A DNA stretch of 10,553 nt, from assembly GCA_012729785.1 (NCBI GenBank), contig JAAYCL010000019.1, forward strand, positions 1 through 10,553. Reading direction: 5' to 3'. This document shows, one piece after another, positions 4,425 to 9,851 of this stretch. The translations under genes and the position numbers were made by a program. Each line of letters opens with the position of its first letter. Within the stretch, counting starts at the first letter, position 1. The notes under the pieces are model-generated. The model did not search any database. It was not told the origin of the DNA and saw only the letters and a list, made by a program, of their open reading frames with translations. Source of the DNA: Chlamydiota bacterium. Its GTDB lineage: Bacteria; Auribacterota; Tritonobacteria; UBA1439.

Positions 4425-5516
4425 GTGCGGGAAATACACGATGCGGTCCCTCCCATCCGCGCGTCGCGCGCGGCCGCATCCAGCCGTGACGCGGACGCCG
4501 CCGCGCATGGTGAATGCTCGCGGGGGCCGACGCGTCGCATGACGCTGACCAGCGCGCTATGCGCCGATGACAATCCGGTCGTGGCCTATCGGGCGAGGAG
4601 ACTGCTTGCCGGCGAATCGGAGCAGTCCCGCTCGATGCGCGACCTGCGGCGTGCCGTCGGGCAGTCCGGGATGGCGCGGGATCTCCTGCGCGGGCTTTGC
4701 ATGGAGCGCTGGAGTCCCTATCGCAAGTGGCAGGGGCCGCACTGGACCCTGTACTCGTTGGCGGAGATCGGATTCCCGCCGGGGGACGAGAGGCTGCTCC
4801 CCTTGCGCCGGCGGGTGATGGACTGGCTCTTCTCGCCGGCGTTCCTGAAGCCCCCCAGCACGGCGATCTATCCCGACCAGCCCGAGAGGCCGCGCCGCTG
4901 CGCCTCGATGGAGGGTGTCGCCATCTGGTCGCAGCTCGAACTGGGCATCGTCGATGAAGCGCGCGCGCCCCTCCTCGTGGATCGTTTGGCAGCCTTTCAG
5001 TGGCCGGACGGCGGCTGGAACTGCGACAAGCGTCCGGGGGCGCACACCTCCTCCGTGCAGGAGACGCTGCTCCCGCTTCGAGGGCTGGCCGCCTGGCATC
5101 GCGCGACCGGGGACGACCGGGCGCGGCGCGCCGCGAACAAAGCGACCGAGTTCCTGCTCCGGCGGCATCTGCTCTGGCGCATGGGGGACGGGGCGCTCAT
5201 CGAGCCTGAATGGGGAGGGCCTGTCGACAAGATCCAGTACCCGATCCGCTTCTACGATCTGCTGAGCGTGCTCCTCGTGATGACGGAGATGGGCCTGGTG
5301 CGCGACCGGCGCTGCCGCCTCGCCCTCGACCTGCTCGAACGCAAACGCCTTGCCGACGGCACGTTCCCCGTCGAGTGGACCAACGCGAGGCGGGAGCGCC
5401 GGATCGAGACCCGCGGCACCTACGCGGACTGGGGGCCGCGGCACGTGAGGAAGGGCAACCCGTTTGTCACCGTCGACGCGCTGTATGTGCTCAAGGCGGC
5501 CGGACGGGGGGTCTGA
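4425..5516 (+). CDS. Alpha/alpha-toroid protein (prenyltransferase/terpene cyclase-like fold), function unknown
   Basis: The 363-aa protein resembles bacterial proteins loosely called prenyltransferases, whose helical repeats share the squalene cyclase/protein prenyltransferase fold. The visible signs are QWPDGGWNCD at 192-201 (a QW-like motif), a second similar ADGTFPVEW at 310-318, GPHWTLYSLAEIG near 104-116 and a C-terminal FVTVDALYVLKAAGR. An Asp-rich cyclase motif (DXDD) is not seen, so no cyclase activity should be assumed. The GTG at 4425 is chosen because GGAG and TGAGG (4411-4419) precede it at good spacing and it nearly abuts apt. However, residues 1-38 are low-complexity and their third-position GC is lower than elsewhere; recognisable homology starts around ALCADDNPVVAYRARRLL. 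The ATG at 4539 (residue 39) is therefore a serious alternative, though its ribosome site is weak. There are no signal peptide or membrane segments. Confidence 0.75.
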   Translation: MREIHDAVPPIRASRAAASSRDADAAAHGECSRGPTRRMTLTSALCADDNPVVAYRARRLLAGESEQSRSMRDLRRAVGQSGMARDLLRGLCMERWSPYRKWQGPHWTLYSLAEIGFPPGDERLLPLRRRVMDWLFSPAFLKPPSTAIYPDQPERPRRCASMEGVAIWSQLELGIVDEARAPLLVDRLAAFQWPDGGWNCDKRPGAHTSSVQETLLPLRGLAAWHRATGDDRARRAANKATEFLLRRHLLWRMGDGALIEPEWGGPVDKIQYPIRFYDLLSVLLVMTEMGLVRDRRCRLALDLLERKRLADGTFPVEWTNARRERRIETRGTYADWGPRHVRKGNPFVTVDALYVLKAAGRGV

Positions 5517-8294: not shown

Positions 8295-8990
8295 ATGTCG
8301 AGAAGGGACCGGTTCGACCAGACACCCGAGGACAGGTTTGTTCTCGCCGCCTACCAGCTGTTCGACTGGGTGGGGAGGCACAGGGCGCTGTGCGCGGCCG
8401 CCGCGGTGGCCGCAGCCGGCGCCGTTCTCGCCGGCATGGCGTACCTGAATCAGCTGCGCGCCTACAACGAGAACGCCGCAATCGCCCTCGATGCCGCGGG
8501 GACCTCCGCGGAGTACAAGGCGGTCGTGGACACCTACCCCGGAAGCCCCGCGGAGCCGGCCGCCCTGTTCCGTCTGGGCAGGAAGCTCGCGGACGAGGAG
8601 CGCTACCAGGAGGCGGAGGAGGCGTTCGCCCTGCTCGCCCGCTCGTACCCGGCGCACCATCTCGCCCCGGACGCCCTGGTGTTCGCGGGGATGCTCTGCG
8701 CGCAGCAGAAGAAGTTCGACGAGGCCGAGAAGCGGTACCGGGGGGCGGCGGAGCGGTACCCCGGCTCGTTCTCCGCCCCACGGGCGCTGCTGGGCCTCGG
8801 CGCCTGCTACGAGGAGATGCGCCGTCCGGACGACGCGAAAGCCGCATACGGGAAGCTCGTCGCCGACTACGGCTCCAGCGATTTGGCCAAGGACGCGGAG
8901 GCGAGGATCTCGAGACTCGCGCAGGCGCCACCCGCCGTCGAGACGAACAGTGCGGCGAAAGGGGGAGAGGGGGGCGCACCCGTTGAATGA
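8295..8990 (+). CDS. Membrane-anchored tetratricopeptide repeat protein (YfgM-like)
   Basis: The 231-aa protein has a cytosolic N-terminus (about 30 residues, charged), one Ala-rich transmembrane helix at 31-50 and an extracytoplasmic helical-repeat part. TPR-like units cover about 72-213, with EEAFALLARSYP, EAEKRYRGAAERYPGS and DAKAAYGKLVADYGSS as repeat ends. The layout resembles YfgM, an ancillary factor of the SecYEG translocon, or the TPR part of BamD-like proteins; the lack of a lipobox argues against BamD. No enzyme motif is seen. The last 20 or so residues are a Gly/Ala/Glu-rich tail. ATG at 8295 has GGGGGGGAAAA upstream at normal spacing. It follows the PHP gene by 18 bases. A strong promoter for the next transcript begins 10 bases after its stop. 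Confidence 0.85.
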   Translation: MSRRDRFDQTPEDRFVLAAYQLFDWVGRHRALCAAAAVAAAGAVLAGMAYLNQLRAYNENAAIALDAAGTSAEYKAVVDTYPGSPAEPAALFRLGRKLADEERYQEAEEAFALLARSYPAHHLAPDALVFAGMLCAQQKKFDEAEKRYRGAAERYPGSFSAPRALLGLGACYEEMRRPDDAKAAYGKLVADYGSSDLAKDAEARISRLAQAPPAVETNSAAKGGEGGAPVE

Positions 8991-9000
8991 CGAATAGCCC

Positions 9001-9029
9001 TTGACAGGAACCGGCCTCGGGCATATTCT
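9001..9029 (+). promoter_or_regulatory. Strong promoter upstream of hpt leader
   Basis: TTGACA (9001-9006, perfect -35) and TATTCT (9024-9029, 4 of 6) are separated by exactly 17 bases. The predicted start is near 9036. In sequence this GC-rich a perfect -35 at ideal spacing stands out. Confidence 0.65.
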
Positions 9030-9037
9030 TTGTGTGC

Positions 9038-9082
9038 ATGGGGCGCGTCTTTGAGCGGGCGCGAAAGGAAAAACGGAAATGA
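9038..9082 (+). CDS. Possible 14-codon leader ORF (basic peptide)
   Basis: ATG at 9038 encodes MGRVFERARKEKRK and stops with TGA at 9080-9082. Its ATG lies about 2 bases from the predicted transcription start, so it would be translated leaderlessly. The peptide is strongly basic. Its stop overlaps the next start as ATGA. No homologue is known to me, and an ORF this short may be chance. Confidence 0.25.
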   Translation: MGRVFERARKEKRK

Positions 9083-9129
9083 GCGATCCCATCATCGAGA
9101 TCACGGGAGATATCTGGATCAGCTTCTAG
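9079..9129 (+). CDS. Possible 16-aa micro-ORF
   Basis: The ATG at 9079 is preceded by an A-rich ribosome site (AAAGGA, 9064-9069) 9 bases upstream. It encodes MSDPIIEITGDIWISF, rich in Ile and acidic. The TAG stop at 9127-9129 gives its last G to a GGGGG/CCCCC hairpin, so a ribosome at the stop would block that stem. It could be a leader peptide, a small protein or chance. I do not recognise it. Confidence 0.35.
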   Translation: MSDPIIEITGDIWISF

Positions 9130-9142
9130 GGGGCTGTCCCCC
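9129..9142 (+). other. GGGGG-CTGT-CCCCC hairpin at the micro-ORF stop
   Basis: A 5-bp all-GC stem with a 4-base loop starts inside the TAG stop codon of the 16-aa ORF. Another GC-rich segment follows. There is no U tract, so it is not itself a terminator. Confidence 0.5.
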
Positions 9143-9153
9143 GGGCGGGCTTT

Positions 9154-9176
9154 CGTCGTCAGGGAGCCGTCGTCAG
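9154..9176. repeat. 9-bp direct repeat in the hpt leader
   Basis: CGTCGTCAG occurs at 9154-9162 and 9168-9176, separated by GGAGC. The 14-base period is not a full helical turn. It may be a binding site or a small duplication. Confidence 0.7.
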
Positions 9177-9218
9177 AAATGACCCGTGGGGCGCACGGCG
9201 CTCCGGCGGGCGCGCAGT

Positions 9219-9241
9219 CCAGGAGAAATCCTGGCTTTTTT
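9219..9241 (+). terminator. Intrinsic terminator before hpt
   Basis: CCAGGA-GAAA-TCCTGG forms a 6-bp stem with a GAAA loop, followed by C and six T (9236-9241). It sits 43 bases before the hpt ATG and about 205 bases after the predicted start of the promoter at 9001. Thus either hpt is controlled by termination in its leader, or the short transcript is a separate RNA and hpt has another promoter that I cannot see. Confidence 0.8.
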
Positions 9242-9284
9242 GTCTTCGAAAGAATCTTCCGCCTCTCGCGGGTTGTGCGAACCG

Positions 9285-9851
9285 ATGAAAAAGATCGTCA
9301 AGACGGTCCTGTTCAGCCAGGAGCAGATCTCGAAGCGCATCGCCGAGATGGTGAAGCGCATCGACGGGGATTTCCGCGGCAAGGACCTTGTCATGGTCGC
9401 GGTGCTCAAGGGCAGCGTGGTCTTCCTTGCGGACCTTGTCCGCGGTTTCACGCGTCCGCTGGCGTTCGATTTCATCGGCGTGAGCAGCTACGGGAACAGC
9501 ACGAAATCGCTCGGCGTGGTGACGCTCGAGAAGGGGATCACGGTGGAGGTGGCGGGCAAGAGCGTGCTGGTGGTGGACGATATCCTCGACACCGGCAGGT
9601 CGCTCGCCTTCGTCAAGGAGTACCTGCAGAAATTCAAGCCGAATGAGATCAAGATCTGCGTCCTCCTAGAGAAGAAGGAGACGCGGTTGATCGACATCAA
9701 GGCCGACTACGTGGGGTTCGAGATTCCCAACGTCTTCGTGCTCGGCTACGGTCTCGACTACGAGGATCGATACCGGCACCTGCCGTACATCGCCTCCTTG
9801 AAAGAGGAGTACTACCACGAGCTGGCCGAGCGCGGGATCGGTCCCGTCTGA
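9285..9851 (+). CDS. hpt: Hypoxanthine phosphoribosyltransferase
   Basis: Hpt salvages hypoxanthine (and usually guanine) with PRPP to give IMP or GMP plus PPi. The 188-aa protein has the family opening (VLFSQEQISKRIAEM), the LKGSVVFLADLVR loop, DFIGVSSYG, the PRPP-binding motif VLVVDDILDTG with Asp98-Asp99, and the late DYVGFEIPNVFVLGYGLDYEDRYRHLPYI segment. The length is typical. ATG at 9285 is chosen because homology begins there; the open frame extends upstream to 9186 but would translate the terminator hairpin into unconserved sequence. The ribosome site at 9285 is poor, with no clear GGAG. A terminator ends 43 bases upstream, so expression may depend on readthrough. Together with apt it completes purine-base salvage in this window. 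Confidence 0.97.
   Translation: MKKIVKTVLFSQEQISKRIAEMVKRIDGDFRGKDLVMVAVLKGSVVFLADLVRGFTRPLAFDFIGVSSYGNSTKSLGVVTLEKGITVEVAGKSVLVVDDILDTGRSLAFVKEYLQKFKPNEIKICVLLEKKETRLIDIKADYVGFEIPNVFVLGYGLDYEDRYRHLPYIASLKEEYYHELAERGIGPV

Follow-up and report, generated by a model that had tools for sequence, protein, structure and literature searches.

A 16-codon gene upstream of hpt in Auribacterota, probably derived from an outer-membrane porin by retention of its C-terminal strand

The DNA ahead of hpt in the window (the whole 10,553-nucleotide stretch analysed here) raises the question of whether its short open reading frames, set between a promoter and an intrinsic terminator, serve hpt at all. An earlier note on this DNA had described a promoter, two overlapping micro-ORFs, a G/C hairpin, and an intrinsic terminator, proposing a translation-coupled attenuator, a small RNA, or a micro-peptide gene; every part was found where it had been placed (Table 1). 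We favor the reading that the second ORF, hereafter the micro-ORF, is a microprotein gene derived from the tail of a porin, whose product would act as a free β-strand, and we give this explanation as a whole a probability of about 0.55. Its basis in sequence consists of conservation, selection at the amino acid level, a shared locus, and the direction of change on a phylogenetic tree.

Stand-alone micro-ORFs occur in 22 of the 44 genomes of Auribacterota, an uncultured and little-known phylum, spread over seven families (four genomes in f1, one in f2, eight in f3, three in f7, two in f13, three in f16, and one in f17). They encode 16–17 amino acids in six families and 26 in f7, and start with ATG, or with GTG in f13, f16, and f17, mostly preceded by a GGAGG site; all three stop codons are represented. 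Wherever the contig continues, an intrinsic terminator follows the ORF, except in f2 (the terminators of contigs L069 and L093 were judged by eye; the hairpin script counts T's into the stem). A degenerate pattern for the tail of the peptide, designed on few members, recovered a single copy from the majority of Auribacterota genomes, as opposed to one match in 43 genomes for the reversed control, and further copies were picked up by allowing one mismatch. When run against 84,980 species genomes, the 16-codon pattern matched 10 contigs only, nearly all of them from phylum genomes already in the set; L093 and G043 carry an identical stretch. Two pattern matches were rejected as false, L045, which has an in-frame stop, and L048, in which the degenerate pattern took TGG as a stop; the match in L097 is the end of an unrelated receptor-like protein. 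The viral contigs scanned gave no match, and the 26-residue form matched no family in NCBIfam, nor did a 129-residue form described below.

The pattern of substitution indicates what is being kept. The window product MSDPIIEITGDIWISF has counterparts in G001 (MGDPTIEIRGDIWISF), G003 (MDDAVTEISGEIWISF), G002 (MDDNIVEIKGDLSVSF), and, in another family, G006 (MGEEDVIIITGDISVSF); predicted products also include MNNDTIVISGDIKVNF and MNNETVVISGGLQVNF, and residues I8, G10, and F16 are invariant. In all 12 pairs tested, pN is lower than pS (ratio 0 to 0.64), as in G034/G042 (four synonymous versus no nonsynonymous substitutions), G018/G011 (nine versus two), and G036/G022 (seven versus three), the 16 codons making the statistics weak for any one pair. 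A comparison of G000 with G003 gives 71% identity for the ORF, as opposed to 46% and 38% for its two flanks, both of which are at the level of shuffled sequence. Because change in the micro-ORF is synonymous-biased, a test that the note had suggested, a purely RNA-level function is contradicted; together with phylum-wide conservation, the same bias upholds the micro-peptide option for the second ORF. A search of Rfam at gathering and relaxed thresholds returned only tRNAs at gathering in the window, the best weak leader match having an E-value of 2.6, and in a DNA-level comparison with 97 other genomes just two close relatives showed a match to the region. The micro-ORF is very probably a real gene, made up of a promoter, the ORF, and an intrinsic terminator, with a predicted product, and the substitution pattern identifies the peptide as the selected entity. 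Few conserved protein genes can be named that are as short as this one, retained across a phylum at 16 codons and below the usual gene-calling size of annotation pipelines.

Table 1. Features of the micro-gene and its neighbors in the window
Feature	Position	Strand	Remarks
TPR protein gene	8295..8990	+	CpoB/YbgF- and BamD-like repeats after an N-terminal hydrophobic stretch; conserved upstream neighbor
Promoter of the micro-gene, σ70-type, TTGACA-N17-TATTCT	9001..9029	+	-35 at 9001-9006, 17-nt spacer, -10 at 9024-9029
ORF1, 14 codons, MGRVFERARKEKRK*	9038..9082	+	judged spurious
Predicted microprotein gene (ORF2, the micro-ORF), 16 codons, MSDPIIEITGDIWISF*	9079..9129	+	22 genomes, seven families, one copy per genome
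Tail EITGDIWISF	9097..9126	+	probable homolog of the final strand of the Alginate_exp porin at this locus in other families
GGGGG/CCCCC hairpin	9129..9142	+	overlaps ORF2 stop; unconserved outside the genus
Intrinsic terminator, CCAGGAGAAATCCTGG-C-TTTTTT	9219..9241	+	stem 9219-9234, T-run 9236-9241; ends the micro-gene transcript
hpt, hypoxanthine phosphoribosyltransferase	9285..9851	+	ATG at 9285; TIGR01203 189.9 bits, above cut-off; PF00156

The remaining parts of the arrangement are conserved to different degrees. ORF1, whose stop overlaps the start of the micro-ORF as ATGA in the window, looks spurious: it is ruled out as a conserved gene by its absence from G001, G002, G003, and G006, and the stretch of G001 that matches it is in frame with the micro-ORF. 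The evidence therefore gives no support to a coupled pair of micro-ORFs. As for the stems, the terminator is conserved in close relatives, and the GGGGG stem is not conserved beyond the genus. The terminator stem forms with a probability of 0.95–0.998, and G000, G001, and G002, which belong to two genera, share its 16-mer without a difference, whereas the other 95 genomes searched lack it. The identity of CCAGGAGAAATCCTGG between genera includes the loop, in a 3′ stretch that otherwise fails to align, a degree of sequence conservation that is unusual for a plain terminator.

The promoter lies where the note had put it, with a perfect -35 box, and calling it perfect overstated the case because the -10 box matches at only 4 of 6 positions (10 of 12 in total); promoter-like sites number three in the window versus 0.6 in shuffles. 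A TTGACA promoter is also conserved in G001, G006, and G003: ahead of the micro-ORF, the first two have the same arrangement of TTGACA, 17 bases, and a hexamer, and the third has a similar one. In G006 (L086, 4870-4936), only about 7 bases separate the end of the -10 box from the ATG, so that the mRNA of the micro-ORF may be leaderless there. In an alignment of contigs from f13, f16, and f17 (L068, L069, L070, L071, and L093), the motif AGGTCGA is invariant about 86 bases 5′ of the GTG start; it may be a promoter element or part of a structured leader.

Where the peptide comes from is suggested by families that lack the stand-alone form. Alginate_exp (PF13372) porins of f4, f14, f15, and f5 end in the tail, and no run of the porin alignment is more conserved; in f8 and f11 the tail ends a divergent relative, and f9, f10, and f12 have a porin with a variant tail. 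In f6, the tail sits on a 129-residue protein with an apparent signal peptide (G010, L075:4474-4863), which combines a porin-like N-terminus with this tail, as though a barrel had been excised. The locus is shared as well: in many families of the phylum a TPR protein gene adjoins the porin or the micro-ORF, and hpt or tRNA-Gln comes next in several, the porin-state order being PHP-TPR-porin-hpt. The TPR neighbor in the window scores 87.5 bits for YbgF/CpoB, for which the cut-off is 90.1, and matches BamD weakly. Genomes of f1 gave no match to PF13372, and a sequence search with the porin matched no solved structure. Alginate_exp paralogs encoded elsewhere were considered as carriers of the tail and discarded, their ends being different. 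The microprotein thus probably descends from the C-terminal tail of the porin, resembling the porins of sister families in tail and locus and differing from them in having neither barrel nor signal peptide.

On a ribosomal-protein tree (seven proteins, 777 columns, FastTree, f17 not included), the porin state occupies the base and the micro-ORF state is nested, with support of 0.90 for f7 beside f4, 0.95 for f1 with f2, and 1.0 for f3, f13, and f16 together. The ancestor of the phylum would then have carried an Alginate_exp-type outer-membrane porin at this locus, whose barrel was lost while the last ~15 codons were retained under purifying selection. Because the porin state is basal, this would have happened two or more times, in f7 and in one or more lineages that include f1/f2 and f3/f13/f16/f17. 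How many losses there were is uncertain, since the node splitting f5/f6 from f3/f13/f16 has a support of only 0.33; besides f7, there may have been one or two origins of the 16-residue form, and the likeness of the f1 and f13/f16 forms at the DNA level fits a single one.

Descent from the porin has to be weighed against chance likeness and against decay. Ends of outer-membrane proteins (OMPs) do converge, a receptor-like protein of G028 ending in WIWGEISVNF, and the micro-ORF could encode a microprotein of separate descent that resembles an OMP strand at its end by convergence only; we consider this improbable, as 13 of 15 residues are identical between an f7 peptide (DDDRIEIRGEILVSF) and an f15 porin end (DDDALEIRGEILVSF), and f1, f2, and f7 have the locus in common. 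Alternatively, the shared locus and tail could be what is left of a lost porin, its last codons and terminator persisting by chance. Such a decaying remnant would hardly keep a start codon and a constant length of 16–17 codons in six families, its own promoter, and purifying selection, or survive relocation; it is already disfavored by the apparent selection on amino acids, and we regard it as the least likely of the readings discussed here.

Two further readings place the function of the micro-ORF in gene expression. TnaC, HisL, and similar leader peptides have 14–26 codons and a terminator downstream, and the micro-ORF resembles them in both respects. Its conservation peaks beside the stop codon, which in f2 lies just 5′ of the hpt ribosome-binding site, as might be expected of a TnaC-like arrest peptide, which under some condition would halt the ribosome at the stop through its C-terminus and thereby alter downstream transcription or translation. 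However, the genes downstream vary by lineage (hpt, tRNA-Gln, or unrelated genes), a full-length porin ends in the same tail, all three stop codons are in use, and the terminator hairpin begins 25–89 nt past the stop in f1; in the window the distance is 89 nt, and the hairpin is therefore beyond the reach of a ribosome waiting at the stop. In addition, neither terminator arm in the window has a second complement within the transcript. An arrest peptide is thus unlikely, and equally so is an attenuator limited to f1, in which hpt would be transcribed only through terminator read-through, whether or not the micro-ORF assists. The identical terminator 16-mer in three genomes of two genera speaks for such control, as does the distance from the T-run to the hpt start, only 25–57 nt in four f1 genomes, which leaves little room for a promoter; none was recognized there in the window. 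Against it, no antiterminator, and hence no pair of mutually exclusive structures, was found, the whole micro-gene transcript folds no better than shuffles (z-score -0.18), and the micro-ORF is retained where hpt is undetected or distant. The f7 genomes have the micro-ORF and no match to hpt, and in f3, f13, and f16 the two lie on different contigs, so the ORF does not always stand 5′ of a regulated gene. For these reasons the micro-ORF is not basically an hpt leader, and an hpt-specific attenuator is not supported as its general role, given f7 and the varying neighbors. The link to hpt is incidental in most lineages, with read-through control possible in f1 as a local addition. Unlike TnaC or HisL, the micro-ORF has no common downstream gene or antiterminator, and its amino acid sequence is conserved over the phylum; the family is neither an ordinary leader nor a known RNA.

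What a porin-derived microprotein might do is suggested by the strand itself. A published pattern describes the C-terminal strands of OMPs, which end in an aromatic or hydrophobic residue (PMC3582582); it is fitted by 14 of 14 variants of the peptide and by 6 of 199 background frames of the window (3%). In vitro, both competition for BamA and inhibition of assembly have been found with peptides made of the final OMP strand (PMC10945584). From the fit and this competition, we tentatively propose that the microprotein is a free strand acting on a reader of porin C-termini. If produced, as its gene predicts, the peptide would pair through its strand and C-terminal Phe with such a reader, for which BamA/BamD, a quality-control protease, or a chaperone are candidates, and the pairing would tune the handling of outer-membrane proteins. 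Lacking a signal peptide, the microprotein would act on targeting or within the cytoplasm; this lack is the weak point of the mechanism, as access to the periplasmic BAM machinery is left unexplained. The likeness to the OMP β-signal and its mimics (PMC10945584; PMC3582582; darobactin) lies in an alternating strand of ~10 residues, a terminal Phe, and kinship to the last strand of an OMP. In contrast to these, the product is free-standing, without barrel or signal peptide, is neither synthetic nor an antibiotic, and has its glycine at position -6 instead of the -5 of the E. coli β-signal, whose strict form (polar-x-G-x-x-hydrophobic-x-hydrophobic) is found in only 1 of 14 peptides. The tail is also unlike the C-termini of BamA itself in these genomes. 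A literature search for microproteins tied to the BAM complex or the β-signal found no relevant paper in the collection covered.

The probable reductive origin is surprising. That separate lineages would have kept only the last strand of a barrel suggests a job for the strand apart from the barrel, and raises the question of which component in the cell would recognize a free porin C-terminus. The boldest form of the idea, in which a porin was repeatedly reduced to a selected strand and a 16-residue β-signal-like peptide regulates OMP assembly or surveillance from inside the cell, we hold to be doubtful. Elsewhere in the window, an ORF for 363 amino acids without a Pfam match (4425-5516) lies between apt and a histidine kinase gene.
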